From positions 1 to 40,742 of IMG/VR virus record IMGVR_UViG_3300032116_015691: a stretch of DNA of 40,742 bases; one strand, written 5' to 3'. This DNA comes from a virus. The notes beneath the pieces were generated by a model that worked only from the letters and a program-made list of their open reading frames with translations, searched no databases and had not been told where the DNA came from. Position 1 is the first letter of the stretch, and each line of letters opens with the position of its first letter. Both the position numbers and the translations under genes were made by a program. Below, one piece after another: positions 10,081 through 32,292 of this stretch.

Positions 10081-12842
10081 CCGCACTGGGTTCCATTCAA
10101 CTGATCATAAATGGTTTTGGCAGTGTTGAATCGGCTTTGTGCTTCTGGTGTGATAGTGCCTTGACGCCCCAGCAGTCCTGATGAACTGATTTCATAATAT
10201 TCATTCACTGCTCTAGCGGCTGATTCTGGACTATTTGTTGCAAGCATTTTTGAATAGGCTGAACGATGAGTGTTCTTGAATTCCCAATCCACAAAATCCA
10301 AGCTTTTTTCCAAAGCTGTTTCATTTGACAGCGTTTTCAGTTGCGGCCAACTCAAACCAATTGCTTGCGGCATGTTTTTAAACCTGTCTGAATTCCATTG
10401 AGCCAAACCTTTGAAAGTGGGATTACTATCTACTCGAGGATTCAATGCACTTTCAATAGTGAAATTGCCCAACAACCCAGCCACATGCTCGGGCTGATAT
10501 CCCTTTCTGATCAAATAGCACCAAGCTTTCTTGGCTTGATTGGGATCAAAACTTTTGCCTGCGCCACTGGCTGTGGCACTGAAATCAGCGTCTGGACGAG
10601 CTTGGCCACTGAACAAAAATGCATTGTTGAGTCGGCGAGTCTTGAGTTCAAACTTTTCTTCGTTGTTGCACGCCAAAATCCAACGTATCATCTCGTTTGG
10701 CACTTTGTTGTAATTTCCGCCACCTATAAGGCCTGCTATACCGCTTTTGTCAAAATTGTCCAAGCCAACGTTGTAAATGAAGTCAGCAAGGCTATTGAAC
10801 TGATCTTGTGTTAGTAAGTTGCTTCCAATGCTGCTGTGAATTTTGCCTTCAACTTTTTTGATGTCAGTTTTCAGCAATGTTTTCATATTGCTTTCACTGA
10901 TGCCTTCACTAACGTTCAATGTGGTGCTGATTTGTGTTCCTGAATCATCTGTGGCGTTCAAAGTCACAGTATTGTTTTGTAGTTCTTGACTTGTAAGCAA
11001 GTGGCCATAGCCTATGAGTTTCTGACCACTTTTACAAGCGTCGTCAAAGGGTTTGCCAATCAAGTTACCGCCCAATCCTTCGTGATCAATTATTTGTTGA
11101 ATACCTCGGTTGTTAACTGTCCATTCTGTGGAAGGCAGCAACACTCTTGGCCCCAACTGTTTGAAAGTGTATTGTGGTTGTCCACTTTCATCCCAGCTTT
11201 CTCCAATGTGCAATCCAGTTTGGCCATTCAATACACCATACACTTGCAAAGGTTTGTCTTGTGCAGGACTCACTTGCCCAACTCTGTAAGTGCTTTCAGG
11301 AGGAGCGTCTTTTCTCTGTACCAACCCAGTATTGGAGTATCCAGGCCCTGCAACACTGCGCTGTCTCCAAGGATCTGCACCAGGCAGTCTACTCACAATG
11401 GTTTGAACAATCTGCACACTGCGTCCAGGACTCACAACGTTTTGAAGTTGCATCCGTTCTTCGGTTCTGATGTCAGGTGCCAACGCAACTACACCTGGAA
11501 CAGCAGTCAAAGGCCTATCTGGACTTGTGGGACTGGCTGCATCAGGTAAATTGGCCACATTGAGTTCAGTTTTTGGTCCTGTGTTAACGTTGCCTGCTCC
11601 TGAGCGCAGGTTTACCGATCCGTTGCCTTGAACTTTGACATCAGCTCCTCCAACTAAATTCAAAGTGCTGTTGCTCTTGACTTTAACATCGGCCTCACCA
11701 AACAAACTCAAGGCTCCGTTTATGCTTCGCAGCCTTATGTCACTAGCACTACTGGCATCAACATTGCCTCCAGCAAACAAGCGAATATTGCCAGTTAAGT
11801 TTTTGATGTCAATGTTGTTTTCTTGACTAGTGAGAAAAATACCATAGTTGCTTCTGTATTGCAAGCTGCCCACAGCCGTGTTGTAGATGTTGCTGTTGCT
11901 CACAATGTGTGCATTGCCTTGGCTGAAAACCAAAACATCACCACCGCTGCTGATGTTGAAAGGCTTCTTGCTATACATCCTTGTTTCGTCAATGCTGCGC
12001 ATTTTGATGCTGCCACCAGCTTCAATATTCACATCTCTGTCTGCATGCAAGTTGATGTCTTGGCCGGCACTTACACTGACACTTTTTTGTCCAAAAATAT
12101 CAATGTTGCCTTCTTTGTCCATCTCAATGCGGGCTCTATTGGGCCCGGTGTTGATAATGATCCTGTCCTGGGTGTCATGGATAACAATTTGTGCCAAACC
12201 ACGAGTTTGGAGGCGAACAAATGCATCAGTGGGCGTGTCGTCCATTACCAAGCTATGGCCATAAGGCGTGCGAATACCCATTGTGCGAATGCCTTGCTGC
12301 ATCCCTCTGGGTGCTGGGCCACCTTGACTTACAGGAAGTTCTGGAACACCAGCTTCTTGAGCAGCTTCAAAACTGGCTTGAAATATAGGTTGCCCTCCAG
12401 TCAGAGGATTCCTGTCTTGTTTTGATGGACTTTGAGCAGGCGTGCTGGGTGTCATAAAGTTGCGGTCAACTTGGAACAAACATCCAAACCAAACGCCGCG
12501 ACTGGGATCACCATTTATAAAACACACTAGCACTTGATTATTGAGATCAGGTGGTATAAATGTCATACCATAGTCTGTTTGTGAACTTGTGGGATTCAGG
12601 TTAATATCAGCAATGTTTGATGCGCCGGCAAATGGGCTAGCATAATCACAAATTATCCAAGTTGCTTCGTTGTCAATAGCCCCACCTAGTTCTGGAATCC
12701 AAACGCGAATGCGTCCCATATTGCGAGCATCATTTACATCGCGTACCAAGCCAAGATAAATTTTATCCCAGGTAGCACGTAAACCCCCAGGCTCTAATTC
12801 ATATGCACCAGGTAAATTTACTGTCTGTCTTAATGTTGCCAT
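10077..12842 (-). CDS. gp5-like baseplate spike with two cell-wall-lytic domains
   Basis: 921 aa, much longer than T4 gp5 (575 aa). Order: an OB-fold domain (about 30-128, with GRIRVWIPELGG); a long VgrG/gp5C-type beta-helix (about 190-425) of short V/I-x-V/I-x-x-G/S repeats; a Pro-rich linker; a GH24-type lysozyme (about 578-750; Glu588 in IIDHEGL, then IGYGHLL and QFNSLADFIYNVG); and a Phage_tail_lysozyme-type domain (about 768-915; KGYQPEHVAGLLGN, catalytic-like Glu797 in TIESALNP, GLAQWN). In T4 gp5 the lysozyme lies between the OB fold and the helix, so this order differs. The Thr of the T4 lysozyme triad appears to be Leu here. The spike punctures the envelope and cuts peptidoglycan. 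Confidence 0.88.
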   Translation of the reverse strand: MATLRQTVNLPGAYELEPGGLRATWDKIYLGLVRDVNDARNMGRIRVWIPELGGAIDNEATWIICDYASPFAGASNIADINLNPTSSQTDYGMTFIPPDLNNQVLVCFINGDPSRGVWFGCLFQVDRNFMTPSTPAQSPSKQDRNPLTGGQPIFQASFEAAQEAGVPELPVSQGGPAPRGMQQGIRTMGIRTPYGHSLVMDDTPTDAFVRLQTRGLAQIVIHDTQDRIIINTGPNRARIEMDKEGNIDIFGQKSVSVSAGQDINLHADRDVNIEAGGSIKMRSIDETRMYSKKPFNISSGGDVLVFSQGNAHIVSNSNIYNTAVGSLQYRSNYGIFLTSQENNIDIKNLTGNIRLFAGGNVDASSASDIRLRSINGALSLFGEADVKVKSNSTLNLVGGADVKVQGNGSVNLRSGAGNVNTGPKTELNVANLPDAASPTSPDRPLTAVPGVVALAPDIRTEERMQLQNVVSPGRSVQIVQTIVSRLPGADPWRQRSVAGPGYSNTGLVQRKDAPPESTYRVGQVSPAQDKPLQVYGVLNGQTGLHIGESWDESGQPQYTFKQLGPRVLLPSTEWTVNNRGIQQIIDHEGLGGNLIGKPFDDACKSGQKLIGYGHLLTSQELQNNTVTLNATDDSGTQISTTLNVSEGISESNMKTLLKTDIKKVEGKIHSSIGSNLLTQDQFNSLADFIYNVGLDNFDKSGIAGLIGGGNYNKVPNEMIRWILACNNEEKFELKTRRLNNAFLFSGQARPDADFSATASGAGKSFDPNQAKKAWCYLIRKGYQPEHVAGLLGNFTIESALNPRVDSNPTFKGLAQWNSDRFKNMPQAIGLSWPQLKTLSNETALEKSLDFVDWEFKNTHRSAYSKMLATNSPESAARAVNEYYEISSSGLLGRQGTITPEAQSRFNTAKTIYDQLNGTQCG

Positions 12843-16522: not shown

Positions 16523-17356
16523 ATGAAATTATTTGAACTTTCCCAACAAAATTTGTTTGAAGGCGGCAATGTGTTCAAAACCGCAGATGGCAAACCCAAG
16601 ACCTCCCGTATCCTTCTTGCACAAATCAGCCCCACGTTGGACTGGCTGGAAAAAGTCACTGGCTTGCCCATGCATGGCATGACCTTGGGCAGTGTGGGCA
16701 AGAAGGCCAGCAGTGGTGATATAGACATTGTTGTGGACAGCAACAAAATTTCCAAGAAAGCATTTGGCCAAAGTTTGGAAAACTGGGCAATTGGTCAAGG
16801 TTTAAATCCCAAAGACCATGTTAAAATTGCAGGTGAAGTTCACTTACTTACACCCATAGCTGGAGATGCCCAGAACGGGTTCGTGCAAACTGATTTCTTT
16901 TTTCATGAAGATCCATCTTGGATGAAATTCAGCATGCAAAGTCCAGGGGATGCCAGCAACTACAGTGGTGCCGAAAGAAACCAACTCATGAGCAGCATTG
17001 CCAAAGCCTTGGGATTGAAATACAGTTGGCAACGTGGCTTGTTGAATCGTGAAGATGAAAGTGTTATCTCCAAAGATCCAGATACCATAGCCCAAACACT
17101 GCTGGGACCCCGCTTTACAGCCAGCAGTTTTGACAGTGTGGAATCAATTCAGCGAGCTATAAAAGGCAACAAACGCATAGAGCAGGGATTGCAGGGGTTG
17201 ATTCACACGCTGCAAAGCACAGACAAATTGGGTCCCACTGGGAAACCCACAATGGATGTGAAAACTGGAAAGCACAAACAAAAAAGCCCCAGTGATCAAC
17301 GCAAAGATCAGGAAGAAGCTCAGCGTATAATCAAACTCACAGGGGTTTCCCTTTAA
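16523..17356 (+). CDS. Pol-beta/MNT-superfamily nucleotidyltransferase
   Basis: 277 aa. LGSVGKKASSGDIDIVVDS (GS at 56-57, D66 and D68) plus a third acidic residue in VQTDFFFHED (D124) form the GS-x-DxD-x-D catalytic layout of DNA polymerase beta-fold nucleotidyltransferases, a family that includes CCA-adding enzymes, minimal MNT transferases and antitoxin/adenylylation enzymes. The C-terminal half is helical and Lys-rich (KTGKHKQKSPSDQRKDQEE), consistent with nucleic acid binding. Substrate unknown. It ends interleaved (TTAA at 17353-17356) with a large three-domain enzyme on the other strand, suggesting the two may act together. Shine-Dalgarno is weak. Confidence 0.75.
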   Translation: MKLFELSQQNLFEGGNVFKTADGKPKTSRILLAQISPTLDWLEKVTGLPMHGMTLGSVGKKASSGDIDIVVDSNKISKKAFGQSLENWAIGQGLNPKDHVKIAGEVHLLTPIAGDAQNGFVQTDFFFHEDPSWMKFSMQSPGDASNYSGAERNQLMSSIAKALGLKYSWQRGLLNREDESVISKDPDTIAQTLLGPRFTASSFDSVESIQRAIKGNKRIEQGLQGLIHTLQSTDKLGPTGKPTMDVKTGKHKQKSPSDQRKDQEEAQRIIKLTGVSL

Positions 17357-19572
17357 GTTTTGAGACCCCAATTAGGGTCCAGTGGCTTGACCTGAATGCG
17401 ATCAAACAACAAAGGGAAATCAGGCAAAACTTGCGGCAAATCAGTTCGGTCCATCCAACTGTAGTTCACGCTGCTGTGTGGTATGAAATCAGGAAAATCA
17501 TGAGTCCCACCCTTGCTTTTCAAGTGGTGATGAAACTTGTGTGCAATTTCGCAATCAAGATCCAAGCATAGGGCTTTGTCCCCCAGCTTGGTCCATCCCT
17601 GAATTTTAGCTGGCACAACAACTGTATTACCGTGCATGCTCATGAGATGAGAGGCTGGCTTTTGACTATAGAGAACAGTCATGTGAAGTTCATCAGTGTT
17701 CATGCAAGGAACACCATTTTTGTCACACCATTCTTTCAATTGAGCAGCATGTGGTGGACTCATGGTCAAGGTCACAATTGTGCCTGCAGGATGCAAACTG
17801 GATTCCATTACTTTGTTCCGTGGATGCTTGAGGTAACGTCGTACAGCTTGAAACAGTTGGTTGCTGAGTTCAAGGTCCAAACCCACAGCTTGTTGAAAAG
17901 CTTCTTTGTCTTTGTTCAATACAGCTTCACGAGCCTTGGTGCCGCTTACGCCCTTGACACCGTTGTGATCGGGATTTCTTTCCCCAGCTGAAACCACTTT
18001 GATGTGAATGGGTTCACGCTGATGTTTCTCACGTATTTCAGGACTGTTCCAACTGTCCAAGAGCTCTCTCATGCCCTTGACCCGATCTTCACCAGCCACA
18101 AACACAAAATCTCGATAGCCTTTGTTGTAGAGCCATTCAGCAGCTTGTAGTGGTGTTTTCACATCTGGGTCTTGCACCAAATGTTCTGCATGATCAGGCA
18201 TAATGCGCTGGAAAAACTCCACCTTTTCTTCCCAAGGCAAAGGGTTCTTTTTGCCGTCTTGACTATGACTCAAAAAGATCCAATAGTCATCGTCACCAGC
18301 ATGTTTGGCCATCAAGTTCACCAGATGCTGATGACCCAAAGTGGGAGGGTTCATTCGGCCAAAGGTCCAGACAACGCTTTTTGTGCTTTGTTCCATAAGT
18401 GACTCAGGTTGCGCTTTTCTCATAAATTGTGCACGATTCACAAACTTAACAATACCAGTTGGGGTTACTGCCACAAAGCCTTCATGGCCAGGCTGGCCTC
18501 CCAAACTGGCACCCACCGTTGAGCCAGCTTGATTGTCCATCTGGCTTTTGAGGTCCAGCTTCAAGCTGTTCAACAAACTCACAATGCGCCACACACTGTT
18601 GTAACCATGCATGTGGCTCTGTATCCATTTCAAACACTTTTCCTGCATGCCTGGGCTTGCAGGACTGTTGATCCCTGTAAACCAATCCAAAAACTCTCTT
18701 GCAACATGTGAAAAATTTGAGCTGCCTTTTTCTGCCTTTTTGGCCAAAAAGCTTTTCATGTAGCCTGGAAGACTAGCAATTTTCTGCGTCTCTAGCTGAC
18801 CTCTATCCAAGAATGATTTCACACTCACTGCGTGCACTCTAAACAAGTGTGACAGTTTGTCAACCAAGGATTTATCCAACTTCAAACTGGTGAGCATGGT
18901 GGCTTCATGAGGCAAGATAGCCAGGCCAAGATCACTCCTGAAACCATAATCTGCAACATTTCTCAATGCTTCGGGTTCTTGATCAGAGGGGCTTTGATAA
19001 ACACTGTGGATAACTACTCCTGCACTGCTGTTGCCGATCATTTCACCATACTGACTGTTGAGGGGAACGCGGTAGGTTATTTTGTTGGGAGTGAATTCAT
19101 AAGCGCCATCAACTATGGGCGGAACACCAGTCCACAACAAATCCGATTGAACGTAACCGATAAATCCTTTTGGGGTAACTTTTTTCAACAATGGGTAGAG
19201 ACTGGCTATTTTGTTGGCATATGCCAGTCGAGCACTTTTTGCACTGGGGCTAGTGTCTTTCATTTTCCTGCTCATGAGCATGTTCACAATAGCCTCAGGG
19301 CTTGTGGTCAGCCCATCATACTTCTTGCTGCTGAACCCAGCTTTGTCAGTGAGCACGAATTTGTGATCTTTCCAGCCAAAGATCAAGGCCGGAGTTCCAT
19401 CAAACTTGATGGAAACATATTCTGGCTTGTGGGCAGTTGCACTCAGTATATGAAAAGCTCTTTTGGCACCGTCCAACCCATCATCAAATATCATGTCCTC
19501 TGGATGCTCAATACGGGCTTTGGCCTCAGTTAAAGAGAGATTCACTTGTGGTAGTAGGTTAAACAGCTTCAT
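17353..19572 (-). CDS. Three-domain enzyme: ligase-like / HxGH nucleotidyltransferase / 2H phosphoesterase
   Basis: 739 aa. Domain 1 (about 1-395) carries nucleotidyltransferase-ligase motifs: KFDG at 56-59 (motif I, candidate adenylated Lys56), FIGYVQSDLLW (motif III-like), GHEGFVAV at about 362-369 (motif IV) and VKFVNR at about 375-380 (motif V). Domain 2 (about 398-585) is an HxGH-type nucleotidyltransferase like NMN adenylyltransferase: GRMNPPTLGHQH at 405-416, VAGEDRVKG, and GVSGTKAR at 541-548. Domain 3 (about 590-739) has the two short motifs of 2H phosphoesterases, HMT (630-632) and HSS (699-701). The layout resembles tRNA ligase Trl1 (ligase, kinase, cyclic phosphodiesterase) with the kinase replaced. 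Roles in RNA end repair, NAD metabolism or signal degradation are inferred, not shown. Confidence 0.75.
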   Translation of the reverse strand: MKLFNLLPQVNLSLTEAKARIEHPEDMIFDDGLDGAKRAFHILSATAHKPEYVSIKFDGTPALIFGWKDHKFVLTDKAGFSSKKYDGLTTSPEAIVNMLMSRKMKDTSPSAKSARLAYANKIASLYPLLKKVTPKGFIGYVQSDLLWTGVPPIVDGAYEFTPNKITYRVPLNSQYGEMIGNSSAGVVIHSVYQSPSDQEPEALRNVADYGFRSDLGLAILPHEATMLTSLKLDKSLVDKLSHLFRVHAVSVKSFLDRGQLETQKIASLPGYMKSFLAKKAEKGSSNFSHVAREFLDWFTGINSPASPGMQEKCLKWIQSHMHGYNSVWRIVSLLNSLKLDLKSQMDNQAGSTVGASLGGQPGHEGFVAVTPTGIVKFVNRAQFMRKAQPESLMEQSTKSVVWTFGRMNPPTLGHQHLVNLMAKHAGDDDYWIFLSHSQDGKKNPLPWEEKVEFFQRIMPDHAEHLVQDPDVKTPLQAAEWLYNKGYRDFVFVAGEDRVKGMRELLDSWNSPEIREKHQREPIHIKVVSAGERNPDHNGVKGVSGTKAREAVLNKDKEAFQQAVGLDLELSNQLFQAVRRYLKHPRNKVMESSLHPAGTIVTLTMSPPHAAQLKEWCDKNGVPCMNTDELHMTVLYSQKPASHLMSMHGNTVVVPAKIQGWTKLGDKALCLDLDCEIAHKFHHHLKSKGGTHDFPDFIPHSSVNYSWMDRTDLPQVLPDFPLLFDRIQVKPLDPNWGLKT

Positions 19573-19692: not shown

Positions 19693-20538
19693 ATGGCATT
19701 GGTTCCCAAGATCAAATATCTAACAAACAAAGATTTATTGTCTGCAATACATGAAAGCAAGATTACGTTTTGTGAATTTGTTGACAAAAAATACTCTGAT
19801 TTTGATGTCATTGTATATGATCTTGTGGCAGCAACTCCAGAAGTGTTGGACGCTGCCCGGCACAAAAAGCTGGCTAACAAAATAGCTGAAGAAAAGAAAG
19901 CCAGTGGCAGCAAGACTTTTGAATCTTCTCTTACGCTAGATGATGTGCCTTTGGAGGAAATTGTTGTGCGACTCATGACATTTGAGCACATTCCGTTGAA
20001 CCCTGCCAAAGCTGACAAAGCCAAAAATCAAGCTGAGAAACACATTAGGTGTAATTTTCCTCCCTTTCAACACTGGATTTTTGAAAACAACACGTGGAAA
20101 TGTGTGGGCAAGAGTCATTACAAGAATGGTGAGTTCACCTTAACTGGCGGCAAAATAACGGACCGATTGGCAGCAATGTGGATCAAACTAGTGGACCGTT
20201 ATGGTCATCGAGGAAATTGGCGAGGTTATACTTATCTGGATGAAATGAAGGCCCAAGCATTGGTGCAGCTGGCACAGGTGGGACTCCAATTTGATGAAGC
20301 CAAAAGCGCAAACCCATTCGCTTATTATACTACCGTAAGTAGTACAAGTTTTCTCAAGATATTGCAACTGGAAAAGAGAAGTCAACACATAAGAGATGAT
20401 CTTTTGATCATGCATGGTGCAACACCTAGTCACACCCGCCAGACAGAGGATCAGTTAGCACAACAACTGGGATTTGACAATGCAGAAGCAGCGGCCCCAC
20501 TTGTTGTGCCTCAAATGAGCCCAACTGGACCCATCTAG
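19693..20538 (+). CDS. gp55-like late sigma factor
   Basis: 281 aa from ATG 19693, with AAAGGA about six bases upstream. It is larger than T4 gp55 (185 aa) through an inserted middle region. The N-terminus (KIKYLTNKDLLSAI) matches T4 KYNYVNNKELLQAI. The sigma core (WRGYTYLDEMKAQALVQLAQ, then FDEAKSANPFAYYTT and FLKILQLEKRSQHI) matches the T4 region FSGYTQSWKQEMIADGI, FDETKYKNPHAYIT, FVQRIKKERK. gp55 directs host RNA polymerase to TATAAATA-type late promoters, and such motifs are frequent in this window. It ends with a CTAG interleaved stop shared with the homing endonuclease gene. Confidence 0.85.
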   Translation: MALVPKIKYLTNKDLLSAIHESKITFCEFVDKKYSDFDVIVYDLVAATPEVLDAARHKKLANKIAEEKKASGSKTFESSLTLDDVPLEEIVVRLMTFEHIPLNPAKADKAKNQAEKHIRCNFPPFQHWIFENNTWKCVGKSHYKNGEFTLTGGKITDRLAAMWIKLVDRYGHRGNWRGYTYLDEMKAQALVQLAQVGLQFDEAKSANPFAYYTTVSSTSFLKILQLEKRSQHIRDDLLIMHGATPSHTRQTEDQLAQQLGFDNAEAAAPLVVPQMSPTGPI

Positions 20539-22256
20539 TATTTTTTGATCCACACTGCGTTGCCTGCATCATAAAAACGATTGTAGCCCAAATTTTTGGC
20601 AATTTCCTGCTCTGTATTGCCCGCAGCTAAGCCTTGTATTTTGTGTTTTTGAAATTTAAGTCGACTCTGAACGTCATTTATATTTTTCCAATACCAATAA
20701 TTGGGTGGACTGATATGACTTAACTCAAAGCCTGTTTTCTCGTAACCATTTCCCAGTCCCCAGTTCAAGTTACTGTAGGACACCAAGCTTTTGAATCCCA
20801 ACTCCTGATGTGCATGATTCAAAAGTTTGCTAAGCCCCCCTGGGACATGATACCCAGGCAAAATACAATATCGGGCCAGCTCATAATCACTCCCTTTGCT
20901 ATACCTAGTTTTGACAAAGCTAGCAAGTGCAACAAGCAACCCGTTGTGTTCCAACCCCCAAATATGTTTGGTTGGTATGTTGCCCTGCAAATGTGAGTTC
21001 TGAATAAATGTTTTAGCTGTCCCAAAATCCACAACTGTAATGTTACATTTACGTGCACCAACAATTGTTTTTTTCAATCCCACTACGTGTGACAATCTAT
21101 CAAATATGATATTGGGTTTTTGCACCATCTCATGTTCCCAAATTTGAACAAGCCTGACACCTTTTTCAAGAGCTTGTTTCCATTTATTTTGATGATATTT
21201 TTTGTCTCCTATTTGGCAATCTGAATGATAAAAAATGCCATTGAACTCAATACCCACATTTAAATCTGGGAGATAAAAGTCAATCTCCAATGGCTTGATA
21301 ACTTCCCTATTCCATTGATCAAAAGATATGTTATTATCCCACAACCATTGTTTGATCTTTGTTTCTCCCCAACTTTCTTTTCTTGGATAACAATCAAAAC
21401 AACGCAAATCAGATTCTCTTTTCAAGGCAACACTGAATTGGTTATGGCATTTTTGGCAAACAAACAAATGTTCAGAATAACGATGTGAGTCCAAAAATTC
21501 TTTTTGAGTGAATAACGGAATGTAATCAGTCCTATTTGCAATATAGGAATCCCAAGATTTTTGCCGAAAAGTTTTCCTATTGGTCTCCCTATGCTCTGTT
21601 GTCAAAAACGGGGCCACAACACCATATTTTGAGAGGTTGGTTTTTTTGGTTTTAACTAACACCTCCAGGTTTTGAGCAGGAACCGGTGTTCCATAAGTGT
21701 TTTGAAACACCTCTATAGTTTTGGTTCTTATATCAGGATGTTGCTGAGGGAAGCTTACTCCCCAATTTTCCTGAATCGTTTTTTGTGCTTTGTCTAAAAC
21801 AACAGGATTTAAGGTTGGAGCTTTTGCACCATACTTTTCAAAACATGTGGTCTCAGCTTTGGCTTTGACCTTGTCATGTTGACTTGCATACTCAAAACCA
21901 TACTTTTGAAGGTTGGTATTTTTACGTTTTTCGTGAATATGATTTATTTCATCTCTAGTGCGGCTGTGTCGAACGCTTTCCTGATATTCACGATTACAGG
22001 AGCATTGAGATTGATTACCACAGAATTTTCTGAACCCTCGAACCATATTATTGAATGTCCTGAACTTACCACTCTGTTCACACCAACTGTTTTCTGCATT
22101 ACCGTTATGAACGTATGCATAAAATTTAGCTGCAATTGGACCTTCATAAGGAAATAATTTGTCTAGCTCTTCTTTGTGTATAGGCAACAACTTTGTCAAC
22201 CTATTAGGTGTAATCTCCTTGTTCAACCAACGTTCTTTCAATTCTGCCAAAATCAC
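20535..22256 (-). CDS. Homing endonuclease, VSR-like, with repeats and a GNAT-like C-terminus
   Basis: 573 aa. Residues about 110-235 contain several copies of a roughly 35-residue unit (KYG...SQH or PQQ, then a basic helix ending in K-x-T), a DNA-reading repeat typical of phage mobile endonucleases. A Cys-rich segment (CQKCHNQF, CFDCYP) follows. The nuclease core is ESWGETKIKQWLWDNNISFD, then EIDFYLPDLNVGIEFNGIFY with HQNKWKQALEKGVRLVQIWEHE, as in VSR/EDxHD endonucleases (Asp, Glu and His present). The C-terminus (YELARYCILPGYHVPGGLSK, then YEKTGFELSHISPPNYWYW) resembles a GNAT-like domain found in this family. The start is GTG 22256 with GGAG upstream, behind an exact TATAAATA. It sits between two core genes, as expected of a homing element. 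Confidence 0.8.
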   Translation of the reverse strand: MILAELKERWLNKEITPNRLTKLLPIHKEELDKLFPYEGPIAAKFYAYVHNGNAENSWCEQSGKFRTFNNMVRGFRKFCGNQSQCSCNREYQESVRHSRTRDEINHIHEKRKNTNLQKYGFEYASQHDKVKAKAETTCFEKYGAKAPTLNPVVLDKAQKTIQENWGVSFPQQHPDIRTKTIEVFQNTYGTPVPAQNLEVLVKTKKTNLSKYGVVAPFLTTEHRETNRKTFRQKSWDSYIANRTDYIPLFTQKEFLDSHRYSEHLFVCQKCHNQFSVALKRESDLRCFDCYPRKESWGETKIKQWLWDNNISFDQWNREVIKPLEIDFYLPDLNVGIEFNGIFYHSDCQIGDKKYHQNKWKQALEKGVRLVQIWEHEMVQKPNIIFDRLSHVVGLKKTIVGARKCNITVVDFGTAKTFIQNSHLQGNIPTKHIWGLEHNGLLVALASFVKTRYSKGSDYELARYCILPGYHVPGGLSKLLNHAHQELGFKSLVSYSNLNWGLGNGYEKTGFELSHISPPNYWYWKNINDVQSRLKFQKHKIQGLAAGNTEQEIAKNLGYNRFYDAGNAVWIKKY

Positions 22257-22383: not shown

Positions 22384-23415
22384 ATGACTATCAATTTAGA
22401 CACTGTTGATTTTTCCAAAACAATTGTCATCACAGATTTGCATTATGGCATGCGCAACAACTCCAAACAGCACAACACTTGGTGCACTGAGTTTTTGGAG
22501 TTTGTGGTGGCTAGAGCAAAAGAGTTGAATATCCGAACACTTTTGTTTTTGGGTGACTGGAGTCACAACAGAAACAATGTGAACATCAGCACTCTCAACT
22601 ATAGTCACAATGGAATGAAGCTGCTCAACAACAGTTTTGATAATGTGATTATGCTATTGGGAAATCATGATCTCTATTTTCGTGACACGCTGGAACTGCA
22701 TAGTATTCCTTATGCACAAGACTTTCCCAATATTCATCTCATTGACAAAATTACCACTGTAAAAGACTTTTGTTTTGTTCCTTGGTTGGTTGGTGACGAC
22801 TACAAAAAAATTCAAACCATCAAACAGCCTTATTTGTTTTGTCATGCTGAAATTGCTAAGTTCCGCATGAATGCTCATGTGGAAATGCCTGATCATGGTG
22901 GTTTGAATGCTGAGCACTTTCAGCATCAAAAACTGGTATTCAGTGGTCACTTTCACAAAAGGCAACGCAAAGGCAACATTTGTTATATTGGAAACGCCTT
23001 TCCACACAATTATGCTGATGTTTTTGATGATGATCGAGGGTTGATGATTTGGAGTCCAGGAGAGGAACCCATTTTTGAAAAATGGCCTGGGGCGCCCAAG
23101 TATAGGGTCTATAACCTTACTGAGGCTCTTCAAGATCCCACCTCTTTGATTGATAACAAAACGTTTGTTCGCATCACAGTGGATTGTGATTTAACCTATG
23201 AAGACAGTGCATTTATCAGAGAACTGTTTGAAACACAACTCAATGCGTTGGATGTGAGTTTCATCCATGGCAGAAGTGACGGAGACGACACTGTTCTTGA
23301 TGACAGTGAGATCAACTTTGAAAGCGTTGACTCAATTGTGATTTCACACTTGAATAGTATTGAAAGCACAACAATGAACAACCAACGCTTGATTGAAATT
23401 TATCAGAGTATTTGA
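22384..23415 (+). CDS. gp47-like recombination nuclease subunit (Mre11/SbcD type)
   Basis: 343 aa. The metallophosphoesterase motifs appear in order: DLHYG (about 18-22), GDWSHN (about 57-62), GNHD (about 93-96), CHAE (about 154-157) and GHFHKRQ (about 188-194), supplying the metal-binding Asp, His and Asn residues. With gp46 it forms the T4 Mre11-Rad50 complex that resects DNA ends and degrades host DNA. It has its own sigma70-type promoter, and its TGA interleaves with the gp46 TTG start (TTGA at 23412-23415). Length matches T4 gp47 (339 aa). Confidence 0.95.
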   Translation: MTINLDTVDFSKTIVITDLHYGMRNNSKQHNTWCTEFLEFVVARAKELNIRTLLFLGDWSHNRNNVNISTLNYSHNGMKLLNNSFDNVIMLLGNHDLYFRDTLELHSIPYAQDFPNIHLIDKITTVKDFCFVPWLVGDDYKKIQTIKQPYLFCHAEIAKFRMNAHVEMPDHGGLNAEHFQHQKLVFSGHFHKRQRKGNICYIGNAFPHNYADVFDDDRGLMIWSPGEEPIFEKWPGAPKYRVYNLTEALQDPTSLIDNKTFVRITVDCDLTYEDSAFIRELFETQLNALDVSFIHGRSDGDDTVLDDSEINFESVDSIVISHLNSIESTTMNNQRLIEIYQSI

Positions 23416-25199
23416 CCTTGATTACACTCAAAAACGTAACAATCAAAAACTTCATGAGTGTGGGTGCAGTCTCACAATCCATAAATCTCACACAGCCTGG
23501 TTTGACACTTGTGTTGGGTGAAAATTTGGACTTGGGTGGAAACGGCAACCGTAACGGTGTTGGCAAAAGCACATTGATCTCTGCCATCTGTTATGGGCTG
23601 TATGGCCAAGCTCTTACCAACATCAAGAAAAACAACCTCATCAACAGCATCAACAAAAAGAACATGGCTGTGAGCATTGAGTTTGAGGCCAACGGCAACA
23701 GCTACAAAATTGAACGCGGGCGTGCCCCCAGCTTTTTCCGTTATATTATCAACGATGAGTCAGTAAATGAAAACAAAAGTGCTGATGAGGCTCAAGGAGA
23801 GAACAAAGACACTCAAAAAGACATTGAAAAGGTATTGGGCATCAGCCACACAATGTTCAAACACATTGTGGCATTGAACACCTATACTGAACCATTCTTG
23901 AGTATGGGCGCAGGTAAACAACGGGAAATTATTGAAGAACTTTTGGGCATCACATTGCTTTCTCAAAAGGCAGAAAACCTCAAAAAGCTCATACAAACAA
24001 CAAAGGCAAGCATTGAGCAAGAAGAGTTCAAAATCCACACTGTGAAAAACAGCAATGCACGTATTTTAAGCACTATTGAAAGTTTGAATCAAAAAACTCT
24101 TCAATGGAACATTCAACATCAAAACAAAATACAAGAACTGGAAAATGCATTGGTGGCACTCAGCCATCTTGATGTTGAAAAAGAAATTCAATCCCACAAA
24201 GACAATCTTGTGTATCGCGAGCTTCAAACAGCATTGAAAAACACTCAAAGCCAAAACCAAACCAAAGCACAGCATTTATCACAGCTGAAGGCACAACAAA
24301 CTGGCTGGCTTACACAGTATTCACAAATTCAAGAACACAATTGCGCCATGTGTGGACAAAAAATTCATGACGAAAAACAAACCAGTTTGCTGGATGACCT
24401 TGAACACAAGATAACCCGGCTGGACAAAAGTATCCAAACATTGGAACAAGAGTGCCAGGTGCTGACTCAAGAACTAAGTGAGCTTCAGGAGCTGAGTGGT
24501 GCAGTGAGCTTGAATCCCACGTTTTACAAAAGCATTGATGAAGCCTATGAACACAGAAACAGTCTCACATTGCTAAGTGCTGAACTAGACAAACTCCAGC
24601 TGGAAACCAATCCTTATCAAGCACAAGTGGGTTCCTTGAACTCCACTCTACAAGAAGTTTCTTATGACTCCTTAAATGAACTAAGCCAACTCAAGGATCA
24701 TCAAGAGTTTCTTTTGAAACTGCTGACAAACAAAGACAGTTTTATCAGAAAAAGGATTATTGATCAAAATCTCAGTTACTTGAACTATCGACTGGGTGAG
24801 TATCTCACTGGTTTGATGCTGCCACATCAAGTGAAATTCAGCAATGATTTGGGAGTGGAGATCATGCATCTGGGCGTGGACTTTGACTTTGACAGCTTGA
24901 GTAGAGGAGAGCGAACTCGAGTATGTTTGGCGTTGAGCTGGGCGTTCCGTGACATTTTTGAGCACATGAACACCAGCATCAACTTCATGGCAGTGGATGA
25001 AATTCTTGATGTGGGCTTGGACAGCACAGGCTTGGAAAGGTCTTTGGAAACTTTGAAAGCCATGAGTAGAGATCGTAACAAAAATATTTTGCTGATCTCA
25101 CATCGAGAAGAGTTGCAGAGCAGGTGTTCTCAAGTGCTGTCGGTTATCAAGGAAGACAATTTTTCCAGATTTGAATGGGACTACACTCCTGCTGTATAG
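23412..25199 (+). CDS. gp46-like recombination ATPase subunit (Rad50/SbcC type)
   Basis: 595 aa (T4 gp46 560 aa). An ABC-type Walker A GNRNGVGKST lies near residue 45, two long coiled-coil arms follow (rich in Gln, Glu, Leu), with a zinc-hook-type CAMCGQK at about 310-316 between them, then the ABC signature LSRGERTR and Walker B FMAVDEILDVGLDS near the C-terminus. It forms a complex with gp47. The TTG at 23412 overlaps the gp47 stop; TTG 23418 is also possible, as no ATG lies near the conserved start. The 3' end overlaps the convergent nuclease gene by 19 nt. Confidence 0.95.
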   Translation: MTLITLKNVTIKNFMSVGAVSQSINLTQPGLTLVLGENLDLGGNGNRNGVGKSTLISAICYGLYGQALTNIKKNNLINSINKKNMAVSIEFEANGNSYKIERGRAPSFFRYIINDESVNENKSADEAQGENKDTQKDIEKVLGISHTMFKHIVALNTYTEPFLSMGAGKQREIIEELLGITLLSQKAENLKKLIQTTKASIEQEEFKIHTVKNSNARILSTIESLNQKTLQWNIQHQNKIQELENALVALSHLDVEKEIQSHKDNLVYRELQTALKNTQSQNQTKAQHLSQLKAQQTGWLTQYSQIQEHNCAMCGQKIHDEKQTSLLDDLEHKITRLDKSIQTLEQECQVLTQELSELQELSGAVSLNPTFYKSIDEAYEHRNSLTLLSAELDKLQLETNPYQAQVGSLNSTLQEVSYDSLNELSQLKDHQEFLLKLLTNKDSFIRKRIIDQNLSYLNYRLGEYLTGLMLPHQVKFSNDLGVEIMHLGVDFDFDSLSRGERTRVCLALSWAFRDIFEHMNTSINFMAVDEILDVGLDSTGLERSLETLKAMSRDRNKNILLISHREELQSRCSQVLSVIKEDNFSRFEWDYTPAV

Positions 25200-26604: not shown

Positions 26605-27005
26605 CGGTTTTTCAAAATAGTGGCTTAGTATGATGGTGTAGTGTCCATCCGTATCTACCAGGCGCGAAGGCAGGGGAAAATTACGCATGAGGGTTTACTG
26701 TTCTATGCCCTCGCCACGAAAGTGAACAAAAAGGATCCAGCCTCTCACTGTCCCGTGAAGCTGGAAGGGGTTCAGTCAACAGCCTGTCTGACTGGGTTCC
26801 CTGCGTGTGTGATGAGCACATAACCGAGAAGGCAGCTCCATGAGCATAAGTCCGAGAAGAGAGTCAGGAATGCTGGAAATAGGTTCTCCGCCAGCTGGAT
26901 ACAATCCCAAGACGAGACAGGCAGGCCGAAGCCCTATACGAAAGCCTTTTTCAAACTTCTCCTCCCGGTGGGGAGAAGTGTGACTTCCTCCCTAACGAAA
27001 TACCC
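26605..27005 (+). ncRNA. Candidate large structured RNA (unidentified)
   Basis: About 400 nt with no convincing ORF and higher GC than the flanks, between a plus-strand gene and a convergent minus-strand gene. On the plus strand I see many hairpins: GAGGG/CCCTC (26689-26712), CAC-GAAA-GTG (26715-26724), nested CCAGC..TCAC/GTGA..GCTGG (26737-26764), CAGTCA-ACA/TGT-TGACTG (26773-26794), GGC-CGAA-GCC (26924-26933) and a 10-bp stem closing at 26955-26979. GAAA and CGAA-type tetraloops and many G-A-A purine loops appear on this strand only, favouring plus-strand transcription. I could not match it to tmRNA, RNase P, a group I or group II core, GOLLD or a tRNA. Confidence 0.55.
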
Positions 27006-27022
27006 AAGTATCAAATATTCAA

Positions 27023-27265
27023 TTATACCTTCTTGGTTTGTGCTCTACGATAGGCTTCTGCTTGCATTTCATAGTGTTTTGAAATAGTTCCAGACAAGGC
27101 TTGCATCTGTGTTGTCGAAAGATGCCAAGCTTCACTGTAGGTCAAACCACCGTTCATGTAATACACTAGGTTTGCAATATCGCTTTCAATCATTTCCACT
27201 TCTTTTTCACAGCTTCTCAGTGTTTTGGTGATCTCCTGGGGATCACCTCTGAGAAGCTTTATTCG
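27023..27265 (-). CDS. Frameshift extension of the gp26-like gene (tail assembly chaperone type)
   Basis: This 80-codon open frame lies in the -1 frame relative to the gp26-like gene and is entered at the slippery heptamer 27271-27265. It begins RIKLLRGDPQEITKTL and ends MNGGLTYSEAWHLSTTQMQA with a helical basic tail. The stretch resembles the C-terminal extension of tail assembly chaperones (GT-type) and occupies the position of a gp51-like ORF. It has no strong ribosome binding site of its own; an internal ATG has only a weak, close purine run. The expected fusion is 276 gp26-frame residues plus these 80, or 356 aa. Confidence 0.75.
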   Translation of the reverse strand, partial: RIKLLRGDPQEITKTLRSCEKEVEMIESDIANLVYYMNGGLTYSEAWHLSTTQMQALSGTISKHYEMQAEAYRRAQTKKV

Positions 27266-27271
27266 AAAAAA
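27211..27271 (-). promoter_or_regulatory. Programmed -1 ribosomal frameshift signal
   Basis: On the minus strand a slippery T TTT TTC (27271-27265), in frame with the gp26-like ORF, is followed by a 6-nt spacer that contains the zero-frame TAA, then a stem of 10 bp (27258-27249 with 27220-27211) enclosing a second 7-bp stem (27247-27241 with 27233-27227). Heptamer phase, spacer length and stem strength all fit -1 frameshifting, and the -1 frame opens directly into the downstream ORF. Confidence 0.85.
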
Positions 27272-28092
27272 CTTGTGGGATCGAAGTCGATTCTTTGACT
27301 CCAAGAGTGGCTGCAAGCGTCGCATTGAAAACTGGTTTCTGTATCAACACCAATGGAATTCAACTCTTTGAGTTTGTCGATAATGGCATTGGCACTGGTT
27401 GTGGGAATACCTTTCACAAACTCTTGAATGTATCCCGGGTTTGTTACTGTTTCACCGGTGCTGATTATTTTGATTGCAGTAATGCTCATGCTCATGATGT
27501 CTAGAGTTCGCTGAGCCATTTGATTGATTTGCTTGGTTACACTGCTGATTTTTTCAGCATCAGTGGTTTCTGTTTCTTCCAACACTTTTATGGATCTGGC
27601 TTGTTCAACTTCATTCAATAGTTGCAGGTTTCTCTGTTGAAAATTATAAGGGCGTAGGAAAACTTGCAGTGCGCCGTCAATTTCCACATACGTGGGACCT
27701 TCCACAGTGCTTTGGGTTTCAATAAATCCACTGAGATCAATTCCAAAATTGTGCTCTTTTCCACAATTGGGGCATGTGGTTTCCACTTCCATTGTGGAAC
27801 CAGCACTGGCTATCCTTATGGCTACCAACAATGTGTTGATGTCAGGTTCCACCAGCTGCTTGGGATCTTTCACCCCTGGAACACAATTTTTGAACACGCT
27901 CAACAAAGCATCACCGTTCAGCAAAGCATCTGGAGTTTTCAGCATTATTTGGTCAATTGCTGTCAATGGATACACAGCCACTTCACCATTGGCGGATGTT
28001 TCAACAAAGTCAGGAGGGTAAAATCTTCCTTGTGTTGGCAATTGTACATAAGCTTTGGGAGTGTGAAAGTATTGACTTAACGGATTACTCAT
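27259..28092 (-). CDS. gp26-like baseplate hub assembly protein / tail chaperone
   Basis: 277 aa. The N-terminus reads YVQLPTQGRFYPPDF, typical of gp26-like proteins (LPSxGxFYP), followed by AVYPLTAIDQIMLKTPDALL. Two CxxC pairs, TCPNCGKE (about residue 107) and QCDACSHSW near the C-terminus, suggest a zinc site. The start ATG (28092) has AGGGC about six bases upstream. Its last codons contain a slippery heptamer feeding the downstream ORF, and it lies divergent to the tape measure gene, which together fit a chaperone that coats the tape measure. T4 gp26 is about 208 aa; functional equivalence is inferred. Confidence 0.75.
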   Translation of the reverse strand: MSNPLSQYFHTPKAYVQLPTQGRFYPPDFVETSANGEVAVYPLTAIDQIMLKTPDALLNGDALLSVFKNCVPGVKDPKQLVEPDINTLLVAIRIASAGSTMEVETTCPNCGKEHNFGIDLSGFIETQSTVEGPTYVEIDGALQVFLRPYNFQQRNLQLLNEVEQARSIKVLEETETTDAEKISSVTKQINQMAQRTLDIMSMSITAIKIISTGETVTNPGYIQEFVKGIPTTSANAIIDKLKELNSIGVDTETSFQCDACSHSWSQRIDFDPTSFFE

Positions 28093-28177: not shown

Positions 28178-30469
28178 ATGAGTTTTACAGCTAGCGAACT
28201 AAAGCAGATCAGTAAAGATTGGGCCCAAGAGCGCACTCTCTCAGAGTTGCGTGACAAAATGGCATCAAACAACAGCATTTTGGCTGCCATTGCCAAAGCC
28301 AAAGACATTGATGTCAAAAGCATAAAAGAATTTAACGATGCGCTTGATGAGGCCAAAGATGGCTTGAGTCAAATGCAAATAGAGGCTGAAAAAGCCAAAC
28401 GTGCTCAAGTCAATAACTTGCGTTATGAGCAACGGATGAAAGACTACGACAAGGAGATTCAAGGCAGTTACAAACGCAGTGTGGACGATTTGCGATCCAG
28501 TTTGGATCGGATGAGCAAGTTTGACAGCACAAGATTGTATGACGGCGTAACAAGCGGGTTGAGCTTTCTGGAGATGAAGGCTCGAGACGCAGGAGGCAAA
28601 GCTTCCAGCCTCGCTACTGCTTTCTCAGTTTTGAACAAAAGTGTAGCAGCGGTTGCTGCTACTGTGGGAATTTTCGCAGCTGGCATGCCAGCTTTTCAAT
28701 CCATGCTTAGTACTGGTGTTACATTTGGCGGCAGTCTGGAAAAAATGCAAGAAATGGTTGGCAGGACTGGTTTGAAACTGGACGAGTTTCAAGGCATAGT
28801 TGGCCAATTTGGTAGTACAATAGGTGGTGTTGGTGAACAAAATTTCGCCACTTTGTTGAGAGGTGTTCAAACCACTACTCGTGGATTTGGTATGTATGGC
28901 CAGACAATGGCCCAACAGGGAGAAACAGTGGCTTCATTTCTTGATATGCTTGCCCAAGGCGGTCTTGCATATGGTATGAGCACTGAAATGCAGAGAGAAG
29001 GTGCAGTCAAATATGTGCGGGAACTTGCTGCACTTACTGAGTTAACCGGGAAAGACAGAAAGGAACTGCAAGCCAGGAGCAAGGCTGCTGCTGAAGATGC
29101 GGCTATAATGTTGCGTATACGGCAGTTGGCCAGAACTGATCCAGCAGCAGCTGAGCGTCTGAGAGCAAATCAAGACGTAATTGCACGTCAGGTAGGCCCG
29201 CAAATGGCTCGAGCTATTGTGGGCATGCAAATGGGGATCATGCCTAGTGATCCCCAAATGCGAGCTATGATGAGCATCGGTGATTTGATGCCTTCTATGA
29301 CGGCCTTGTCAAGAGGGTTGGCCACTGGAACACCGGAAGAGACTATGCGGTCAGTTCTGGAATTCCAGCGGGCCTTAACTGAAAGTCGCGGCCTAGACAC
29401 ACTACAACTACAAGCACAAGTGGGTGGTGCATACGCTGGTAGCGCAGAAATGTTTGCTAAGATGCTACCAGAAGCTGAGCGTGGGCAAGCTGCTGCTGCC
29501 AGACCTGGCGGGTTAGACCGTATTTTAAATATCTTCACAGGCAGGGGTGGCAATCTTGATAGAGCCACAACTGCAATGCAGAAAGTGACTATGGACACTG
29601 CTCGCATAACAGGTGATTTCAAGGCAGCGCTCTATGCAGCTACACAACAGTTGGGCTTGTTTACAGCAGTTCTTGAACCATTGGCAGCAGCAACTGGCGT
29701 AGGCGCAGGAGCAGCCAACTCATTTTATGGAATGGCTGCTAGTGGTATTTCAGGAGCAGCCTCGGCCTTGGCCACAGGAGCTGCTGTTGCATTGATGCCT
29801 AAATTACTGGCAAGTACAGCCTTAAGAGCTGCAATACCACGGTTTCTGGGCGGAGGAGGTTTGGGTTTGACTTCAATGCTGGGCTCTACAGGTGTAGGTG
29901 CTGGTATGATGCGAGGAGCATCGAGTATGGGCGGACTAGGGAAGGGCAGGTTGCTAGGCGCTGGCGCGCTAGGGATAATGGGTGGCATAGGGGGGAGCTA
30001 TGCGGCTAACCAAGTTGGTGCGCCTGGTTGGTTGGGCGGTGCATTGGGCGGTGCAGCAACAGGGGCTCTTGCAGGCATAGGGGCAGGCCCTGGTGGTATC
30101 TTGGCAGGAGCAATACTTGGCGGATTAGTCGGGGGTGTCACAAGCTATGGGACAAGTTCAGCCAGTGCAGCAGAAGCAAGGACAGGTGATCAAACTGGCG
30201 ATGCCAACAGCGTATTACAAGATTCAACTGCACTTGTTGAAATGCAAGCAAGCAGCACGTCATTTGTTTCCGCTATGGCTGCACTTGTAAGTAGAGTAGC
30301 AGCCCAAGCAACTATGACTAGTCTTGCGCCGCCAGTAATACCGCAAAATGATGCCTTAATAGGAGCTGTCCACACCTTGACAGAAACTGTTGCACAACAG
30401 ACCCCAGTACAACAAGAGATAGCAAGACAATCGCGTATCACAGCCGGAATAATTGGTGACTTTAGCTAA
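28178..30469 (+). CDS. Tail tape measure protein
   Basis: 763 aa. The N-terminal 130 residues are charged and helical (coiled-coil-like), followed by a hydrophobic helix (about 148-170, SVAAVAATVGIFAAGMPAF), a long helical middle with repeated Ala/Leu patterns, and a C-terminal half extremely rich in Gly/Ala (GGGGLGLTSMLGS, GAGPGGILAGAILGGLVGG) containing several membrane-compatible segments. This is the usual make-up of tape measure proteins, which set tail length and enter the cell with the DNA. It replaces T4 gp29 by position and lies next to the frameshifted chaperone. The ATG at 28178 is preceded only by a weak purine run. Confidence 0.8.
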   Translation: MSFTASELKQISKDWAQERTLSELRDKMASNNSILAAIAKAKDIDVKSIKEFNDALDEAKDGLSQMQIEAEKAKRAQVNNLRYEQRMKDYDKEIQGSYKRSVDDLRSSLDRMSKFDSTRLYDGVTSGLSFLEMKARDAGGKASSLATAFSVLNKSVAAVAATVGIFAAGMPAFQSMLSTGVTFGGSLEKMQEMVGRTGLKLDEFQGIVGQFGSTIGGVGEQNFATLLRGVQTTTRGFGMYGQTMAQQGETVASFLDMLAQGGLAYGMSTEMQREGAVKYVRELAALTELTGKDRKELQARSKAAAEDAAIMLRIRQLARTDPAAAERLRANQDVIARQVGPQMARAIVGMQMGIMPSDPQMRAMMSIGDLMPSMTALSRGLATGTPEETMRSVLEFQRALTESRGLDTLQLQAQVGGAYAGSAEMFAKMLPEAERGQAAAARPGGLDRILNIFTGRGGNLDRATTAMQKVTMDTARITGDFKAALYAATQQLGLFTAVLEPLAAATGVGAGAANSFYGMAASGISGAASALATGAAVALMPKLLASTALRAAIPRFLGGGGLGLTSMLGSTGVGAGMMRGASSMGGLGKGRLLGAGALGIMGGIGGSYAANQVGAPGWLGGALGGAATGALAGIGAGPGGILAGAILGGLVGGVTSYGTSSASAAEARTGDQTGDANSVLQDSTALVEMQASSTSFVSAMAALVSRVAAQATMTSLAPPVIPQNDALIGAVHTLTETVAQQTPVQQEIARQSRITAGIIGDFS

Positions 30470-30534: not shown

Positions 30535-32292
30535 ATGGCTTGGAAAAAATATTTCACAACAGTACCGAGTCAAGCTAGACTCACTGCACGACTAGCAGAA
30601 ATCAACAAAGACAACAGTCAAGGTGCAACCACTACCAAATTCAGCAGTTATTTGCCAGAAGTTTATGCTGGCGCGCCCAACCGTGTGGAACGCTATGTGG
30701 CTTACGAGCAAGCTGATTTAGACAGTGAAATCAATCGTAGTTTGGACACAATAGCTGAATTCTGCACACAAAACCAAAGTGATGACGATCCCATTCCCTT
30801 CCGATTTATTTGGAAAGGAGATGTTACTGAAACCGAAACAGAACTGTTGAACAATGCGCTTCAACAATGGTGCAGCATAAATCGGTTGAACCAACGTATC
30901 TTCAAAATATTCAGAAACACTGTGAAATATGGAGATCAATTTTTCATCCGTGATCCTGAAACCTATGAACTTTTGTGGGTTGATGCTGCCAAAGTGGAAA
31001 AAATCATTGTAAATGAGGCACAAGGTAAGAAAATTGAGCAATATGTGATTCGTGATCTAGACTTCAACTTACAAAGCTTGGTGGCAACCAACCCACTGGT
31101 ACACGATCAATACAGTTTTCCAGGTGGCTATCCCAGAAGTTCCAACCCAGCAGCCGGTGCAGGAAACATAAATTATGGCCAGCCCACCACCCCAGGTGGC
31201 CGCACAAGCCGTTTTTACAACCCAGCCAACAGCCTTGCTATTGATGCAAATCACGTTGTGCACTTGAGTTTGAGTGAAGGCATGGATCAATACTGGCCTT
31301 TTGGCATCAGCATTATTGAAGCTGTGTATAAAACCTACAAACAAAAAGATCTCTTGGAAGATTGTATTCTCATCTATCGTATTGTGAGAGCACCTGAGCG
31401 CAGAGTGTTCAAAATTGACGTGGGTCAGCTTCAAGGCCAACGTGCTATGCAATATGTGGAAAGAGTCAAAAACGAAATCTATCAAAGAAGGTTGCCCAAC
31501 CGCACAGGTGGGGGCACAAGTATTATTGACAGTGCATACAATCCCATCAGCATAACAGAAGATTTCTTTCTTGCTACCAACAGCGAGCAGCGCGGAACAA
31601 CAATTGATACTTTGAACGCTGGCGAAAATCTTGGTACTATTGACGACCTCAAATACTTCAACAACAAGCTGATGCGTGGATTGGGCATTCCCAGCAGCTA
31701 CTTGCCCACAGGGCCAGATGATGGAACAGCAGTGTTCAACGACGGCAAAGTTGGTACAGCATTTATCCAAGAGTATCGATTCAACAAATATTGTCAAAGA
31801 CTGCAAAACAGTATTGCGCCAACACTGGATATGGAATTTAAATTGTTTTTGAAATTCCGAGGTATTGAGGTTCACAGCAGCTTGTTTGAATTGGCATTCA
31901 ATGTTCCTCAAAGTTTCAGTCAGTATCGAAACATGAGCTTGGATACAGAGCGTGTGAACCTGTTCAGTTCAGCTATGAACAGCGATGCTAGAGCTTACAT
32001 GAGCAAGCGTTATGCTTTGAAACGCTATATGGGATGGACTGAAGAAGACATCCTGGAAAATGAACGTATGTGGAAAGAAGAAAACAGTGCCAAAGTCAAG
32101 GACAAAACTGGAACCAGCCCAGTTGAAGACCAAAGCGTGGGTCTCGGATCAATAGGCATACGACCCAGTCCAGAACCTGAATTTGGCTTGGGAGGTCCAG
32201 AAGCAGGACCTGAAGCGCCTCTAGAAGCGCCGCCAGCTGAAGCACCTGCGCCTGCCCCAGGTGGTGAAACACCCCCAACTGAAACACCGTAA
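30535..32292 (+). CDS. Portal protein (gp20-like)
   Basis: 585 aa (T4 gp20 524 aa). The body matches T4-type portals: AYEQADLDSEINRSLDTIAE, KIFRNTVKYGDQFFIRDPET, YRIVRAPERRVFKIDVGQL, NEIYQRRLPNRTGGG and NAGENLGTIDDLKYFNNKLM then GLGIPSSYL. The C-terminal 50 residues are a Pro/Ala/Glu-rich tail. The portal is the dodecameric DNA channel at the head vertex and nucleates capsid assembly. It follows a good late promoter and is followed by fibre genes rather than directly by the head core genes as in T4. Confidence 0.93.
   Translation: MAWKKYFTTVPSQARLTARLAEINKDNSQGATTTKFSSYLPEVYAGAPNRVERYVAYEQADLDSEINRSLDTIAEFCTQNQSDDDPIPFRFIWKGDVTETETELLNNALQQWCSINRLNQRIFKIFRNTVKYGDQFFIRDPETYELLWVDAAKVEKIIVNEAQGKKIEQYVIRDLDFNLQSLVATNPLVHDQYSFPGGYPRSSNPAAGAGNINYGQPTTPGGRTSRFYNPANSLAIDANHVVHLSLSEGMDQYWPFGISIIEAVYKTYKQKDLLEDCILIYRIVRAPERRVFKIDVGQLQGQRAMQYVERVKNEIYQRRLPNRTGGGTSIIDSAYNPISITEDFFLATNSEQRGTTIDTLNAGENLGTIDDLKYFNNKLMRGLGIPSSYLPTGPDDGTAVFNDGKVGTAFIQEYRFNKYCQRLQNSIAPTLDMEFKLFLKFRGIEVHSSLFELAFNVPQSFSQYRNMSLDTERVNLFSSAMNSDARAYMSKRYALKRYMGWTEEDILENERMWKEENSAKVKDKTGTSPVEDQSVGLGSIGIRPSPEPEFGLGGPEAGPEAPLEAPPAEAPAPAPGGETPPTETP

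Follow-up and report, generated by a model that had tools for sequence, protein, structure and literature searches.

The 40,742-base IMG/VR virus record IMGVR_UViG_3300032116_015691, a 40.7-kb fragment that is referred to here as the window, very probably encodes the tail assembly chaperone of a large phage, distantly related to T4, in a cassette with programmed -1 ribosomal frameshifting, judging by its sequence and by those of its relatives. The cassette lies on the minus strand and consists of a gp26-like gene that ends on a slippery heptamer, a stop codon and a hairpin, and of an extension that is open in the -1 frame. The slipping itself, its rate, the chaperone action of the products and their binding partners are inferred.

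Sequence and structure of the cassette

The elements of the cassette, with the evidence for each, are as follows.

27259..28092, minus strand: gp26-like gene, 277 aa, short form (TAC-N / G-like); PF12322 and phrog_150 matches
27265..27271, minus strand: slippery heptamer T TTT TTC, of the form X XXY YYZ in the zero frame; sequence
27259..27261, minus strand: zero-frame stop TAA, within the 6-nt spacer GAATAA that leads from the heptamer to the stem; sequence
27249..27258, minus strand: 5' arm of stem 1 (10 bp), AGCUUCUCAG; RNA folding, partner 27211-27220
27211..27220, minus strand: 3' arm of stem 1 (10 bp), CUGAGAAGCU; RNA folding, partner 27249-27258
27241..27247, minus strand: 5' arm of stem 2 (7 bp, inside stem 1), GGUGAUC; RNA folding, partner 27227-27233
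27227..27233, minus strand: 3' arm of stem 2 (7 bp), GAUCACC; RNA folding, partner 27241-27247
27023..27264, minus strand: -1-frame extension (T-like / gp51-tail-like), 80 aa and stop; open frame, dN/dS and AF2 model

The 277-aa protein matches the Pfam family PF12322, 'T4 bacteriophage base plate protein', at E 6e-17 (62.5 bits, against a curated cut-off of 24.5) and the 'baseplate hub' family phrog_150 at E 1.8e-20, and its AF2 model has a pLDDT of 94.7. A first, sequence-only reading of the window had placed an in-frame T TTT TTC at 27271-27265 shortly before the zero-frame stop, followed after a 6-base spacer by a 10-bp stem around a 7-bp stem, and both parts of this description were confirmed: the minus-strand context of the site is ...ACA AGT TTT TTC GAA TAA AGC TTC..., and the RNA from 27264 to 27200 folds at -24.7 kcal/mol, compared with -10.1 +/- 2.7 for dinucleotide shuffles (z -5.45), none of the 200 shuffles reaching the native folding energy.

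The same reading had the -1 frame run into an 80-aa ORF with a poor start of its own, and this too held. The frame is open from the heptamer to the TAA at 27025-27023, which amounts to 82 codons from the slip site and 80 past the shared FF, such that the predicted fusion comprises residues 1-276 of the gp26-like protein and the 80-aa extension, or 356 aa in total. There is no ATG, GTG or TTG in the -1 frame near the zero-frame stop of this record; a 100-aa ORF that opens at the ATG at 27325 starts inside the gp26-like gene, in the other frame. When the locus was compared with its nearest relatives, the dN/dS of the extension was 0.16-0.17 in the -1 frame versus 1.0-1.4 in the other two frames; the extension evolves as a protein, and purifying selection acts on it in the -1 frame alone. 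Its AF2 model is a small all-helical domain (pLDDT 87.9), for which a search of BFVD yielded no significant match to a known chaperone.

Proposed mechanism and function of the products

In the mechanism proposed here, the majority of ribosomes would stop at the TAA at 27261 and yield the 277-aa gp26-like short form. A minority would move back by a single base on the U UUU UUC site, where the tRNAs in the P and A sites would pair anew with UUU UUU; a pause at the hairpin, which begins 6 nt downstream, would aid this tandem slippage. The slipped ribosomes would produce the 356-aa long form with its additional 80-aa helical tail. By analogy with lambda gpG and gpGT, the tape measure protein would receive a coat of many short and few long forms, the extension tail would recruit tube or hub subunits, and both forms would leave before the virion is completed. 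In T4 and its nearer relatives the same two forms would be supplied by duplicated genes, with gp26 as the short and gp51 as the long form.

One may accept the frameshift and still regard its products as structural components of the hub and not as chaperones of tail assembly, a view that we consider unlikely. The annotation 'baseplate hub subunit' is widespread and T4 genetic work put gp26 in the hub (PMC3004832), but the same source lists both gp26 and gp51 of T4 as hub assembly chaperones. Similarly, the model of the gp26-like protein shows no fold match to a solved chaperone: a fold search of the PDB gave no match at E <= 0.001, and hence no solved tail assembly chaperone, a profile search of PDB sequences gave no match, and the models matched in BFVD were those of the T4-like gp26 family. 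Yet in the record of Pseudomonas phage PA5oct the portal and a neighbouring structural protein carry an MS/MS note, which the gp26-like protein does not, and Vladimirov et al. 2022, as cited in PMC12846349 and PMC10885494, already identified the tail assembly chaperones of T4-like phages. The pair meant in that study would be gp26/gp51, a reading of the citing papers that is in line with the sequence evidence. Given the lack of a match to solved chaperones, the chaperone assignment rests on homology to gp26 and gp51, on the frameshift architecture and on the literature.

Since these chaperones are already in print, the frameshift does not newly recast the gp26/gp51-type proteins, as the sequence-only reading had supposed it would. 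The literature collection that was searched contained no report for the jumbo-phage lineage studied here, although some such phages may be included in Vladimirov et al. 2022.

Conservation of the cassette and its surroundings

Relatives were gathered with the zero-frame protein or its alignments, never with the heptamer or the extension, and named phage records were added; the one exception is Salicola phage SCTP-2, which was first encountered via its extension. All 286 related loci contain, close to the 3' end of the gene, an in-frame heptamer of the form X XXY YYZ together with a -1-frame extension; the few short extensions are cut by contig ends. On this cross-phage comparison the suggestion that the gene pair would follow the logic of G/GT-type chaperones is strongly supported. 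Among 89 representatives the stop follows the heptamer at a distance of 0-33 nt. T TTT TTC is the prevailing heptamer, with A AAT TTT and T TTT TTT making up the rest apart from a single T TTT TTG; by way of control, any of the three main heptamers occurred in a single one of 845 13-codon windows from the same genes, and none of their 25 internal Phe-Phe pairs was written TTTTTC.

The phages with both site and extension include Agrobacterium phage Atu_ph07, Sinorhizobium phage Phosso, PA5oct, SCTP-2, Escherichia phage 121Q, Klebsiella phage RaK2, Vibrio phage KVP40, Delftia phage phiW-14, cyanophage S-PM2, Pelagibacter phage HTVC008M, S-RIM8, S-H34, Acidovorax phage ACP17, Aeromonas phage 65, Vibrio phage vB_VmeM-32, Pseudomonas phage Milchi, Stenotrophomonas phage Yut2 and Salmonella phage PHA46. 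In the public phage records examined, the second part is either a small CDS of its own, labelled 'hypothetical' or 'baseplate hub assembly catalyst', or left unannotated, and none of these records has a joined CDS for the cassette.

The hairpin is less uniform; a stimulatory RNA structure is common, though not universal, at frameshift sites of the G/GT type. Among 50 representatives of less than 60% identity, the 65 nt 3' of the site fold with a mean z of -2.02 relative to shuffles, versus -0.03 for control windows, and z falls below -2 in 32 of the 50 as against 7 of 150 controls; in some relatives the folding is no stronger than that of shuffles. The two stems show weak covariation, limited to two double changes in four near-clade sequences. 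Of the conservation that had been proposed as a check on the frameshift, the heptamer was retained throughout and the downstream folding in only part of the relatives.

It is very improbable that the downstream ORF is instead a small gene in its own right, reached by reinitiation beyond the gp26-like stop or from a start of its own. The records of 121Q, Phosso, S-RIM8, S-H34, Milchi, Yut2 and PHA46, for example, do present it as a separate CDS, and in 36 of the 89 representatives an ATG, GTG or TTG lies within 7 codons of the stop, in some cases as an ATGA overlap (Atu_ph07); the remaining 53, and the record studied here, have no such start, and on this ground the separate-gene reading was rejected. 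Moreover, the first available start lies at a median of codon 14 and would drop the conserved FFRxxLL region, and separate initiation leaves the retention of the heptamer in 286 of 286 loci unexplained.

Programmed ribosomal frameshifting is also to be preferred to transcriptional slippage on the T6-T7 run as the event that joins the two frames, the latter having a still smaller chance of being correct. Most loci do contain a T6C homopolymer run, and some a T7, but six T fall short of the run lengths at which efficient transcriptional slippage is usually reported. A whole group of relatives uses A AAT TTT, in which there are only five T, which argues for ribosomal over transcriptional slippage and was the basis for rejecting the latter. 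In addition, the phase fits tandem slippage in every case, and RNA structure is enriched 3' of the site. Homopolymer runs are error-prone, but the idea that faulty assembly or sequencing of the T run has split one continuous gene is refuted by conservation in the 286 loci: the same split is seen in hundreds of independent contigs and isolate genomes, with the stop kept 0-33 nt after the heptamer.

As a separate observation, the extensions of two of the related loci, L003 and L007, are near-identical (dS 0.02) and their gp26-like genes differ at a dS of about 1.0, a contrast that points to a recombination event whose breakpoint lay close to the frameshift site.

Two genes on the opposite strand form the neighbourhood of the cassette.

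28178..30469, plus strand: divergent 763-aa ORF between the cassette and the portal gene, a virion structural protein and unproven candidate tape measure; ORF and position
30535..32292, plus strand: T4-type portal gene (gp20); PF07230, E 3.9e-101

A large divergent ORF occupies the equivalent position in Phosso, PA5oct and 121Q and stands beside the cassette in 49 of the 50 jumbo-type loci with enough flanking sequence, and this conserved neighbour encodes a virion structural protein of 730-830 aa. Chaperone genes of the G/GT type usually lie just upstream of the tape measure gene. The 763-aa ORF is a candidate, and an unproven one, for the tape measure: it has no match to a PHROG tape measure family and no similarity to T4 gp29, and its hydrophobic segments are uninformative. 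Another candidate for tail-length or hub functions, on the strength of profile matches to a baseplate hub subunit/tail lysozyme family, to endolysins and to a tape measure family, is the 921-aa ORF at 10077-12842 on the minus strand.

Elsewhere on the minus strand of the window, a 739-aa ORF (17353-19572) combines cytidyltransferase-like and RNA ligase-like profile matches, and a 573-aa ORF (20535-22256) has a strong match to a homing/HNH endonuclease family. The latter adjoins two plus-strand ORFs (22384-25199) that we take to resemble the gp47/gp46 recombination nuclease pair of T4. Just 3' of the cassette there is a non-coding stretch of about 400 nt (26608-27006, minus strand) that is 95.5-96% identical to those of loci L003-L011, whereas the adjoining gp26-like gene differs at a dS of about 1.2. 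This stretch belongs to no Rfam family and shows no unusual overall folding; its core, GCTGGCGGAGAACCTATTTCCAGC (26872-26895), can form a small hairpin and recurs at lower identity 3' of the cassette in the distant loci L041, L042, L061, L069, L039, L019 and L024.

Relation to T4 gp26 and gp51 and to other known systems

T4 gp26 (208 aa) and gp51 (249 aa) both belong to PF12322, with gp51 possessing an additional C-terminal tail. T4 has two genes of this family, each of 15 other large records has one, and so does the 40.7-kb fragment studied here; the gp26-like gene of SCTP-2 is too diverged for the PF12322 profile. A T-run heptamer with a -1 extension before the stop is absent from T4 gp26 and from the gp26-like gene of RB43. 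When a profile of the cyanophage-type extension was run against 907 ORFs, the two best matches were T4 gp51 (E 6e-7) and RB43 gp51 (E 2e-6), in both cases at the C-terminus, and phrog_150, which spans gp51 including its tail, gives two overlapping matches in S-PM2 and HTVC008M, one to the gene and one to the -1 tail. The jumbo-type and cyanophage-type extensions align with an hhalign probability of 64% over a conserved helical motif. The extension of the studied clade on its own has no significant match to T4 gp51, the link passing through the cyanophage-type profile. Homology between the C-terminal tail of gp51 and the -1 extension of the relatives is therefore supported by profile comparison, indirectly so for the jumbo-type extensions.

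The link to gp26 and gp51 that the sequence-only reading had drawn is thus upheld in that both are PF12322 proteins and the tail of gp51 corresponds to the -1 frame of relatives; its account of the two ORFs as a gp26/gp51-type pair applies in modified form, as the second ORF would represent only a gp51-like tail, and the counterpart of gp51 would be the complete fusion.

In a midpoint-rooted tree of 23 zero-frame proteins, gp26 and gp51 of T4, RB43, Aeromonas 31 and KARL-1 group together (95/97), all gp51 proteins form one group (100/99), and the frameshifting genes fall on one side of a single branch. With this topology one duplication suffices, with a single change between the frameshift and the two-gene state. 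The frameshift is taken as the older state because of its wide spread. It is thus likely that the -1 frameshift is ancestral in the T4-related superfamily, from cyanophages to jumbo phages, and that one duplication in the Straboviridae gave rise to genes 26 and 51.

If these views are correct, the gene usually labelled 'baseplate hub' and the small hypothetical or 'hub assembly catalyst' gene that accompanies it would, in hundreds of large T4-related phages, be a single chaperone gene read with a frameshift. The cassette would then explain the apparent lack of a full gp51 in most of these phages. Natural variants of the slip site (U UUU UUC, U UUU UUU and A AAU UUU, at several distances from the stop) may tune the ratio of short to long form. 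An ancestral frameshift would also turn the duplication into a natural before-and-after experiment on the need for a fixed ratio.

Among known systems, P1 PmgB has a weak profile relation to the gp26-like protein of the studied record (phrog_1854, E 1.8e-4), and phrog_150 in turn matches pmgB (P1 NC_005856, 44492-45373) at E 5e-4. The gene sits directly upstream of the tape measure gene and is essential for tail morphogenesis, and its product was undetected in the virion (PMC9024508). The end of pmgB has no heptamer and no -1 extension, and on the former ground it was rejected as a frameshifting relative; the weak relation suggests that PmgB could belong to the same chaperone family without making use of a frameshift.

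A chaperone frameshift with a GTTTTT motif has been described in the Vandenendeviridae and Andersonviridae (PMC12846349), phage families other than the one studied here. The likeness is one of architecture, and consists in a poly-T slip site, a -1 extension that is open across the family and a second part that is usually annotated separately.

A conserved frameshift in the tail chaperone genes of long-tailed phages was reportedly described by Xu, Hendrix and Duda in 2004. The G-T frameshift of lambda gpG/gpGT is held to be widely conserved in long-tailed phages 'except T4' (PMC5009743). Like the studied cassette, the lambda system has a -1 shift near the end of the first ORF, a second ORF without a good start, and a short and a long product; there is no detected relation in sequence or fold between the two sets of proteins, and, unlike in lambda, the neighbour of the studied cassette is divergent. 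The slip site of lambda is G GGA AAG, whereas that of the studied cassette and its relatives is U UUU UUC or A AAU UUU.

The closest comparison is with T4 itself, whose gp26 and gp51 belong to the same family as the studied cassette and likewise provide a short form and a long form with a C-terminal tail. T4 and RB43 do so from a pair of paralogous genes, and their gp26 gene has no slippery site at its end, whereas the studied phage and its relatives have one gene with a heptamer. The two arrangements can thus be compared directly, as the ratio that slippage would fix in the one must be set by two genes in the other.
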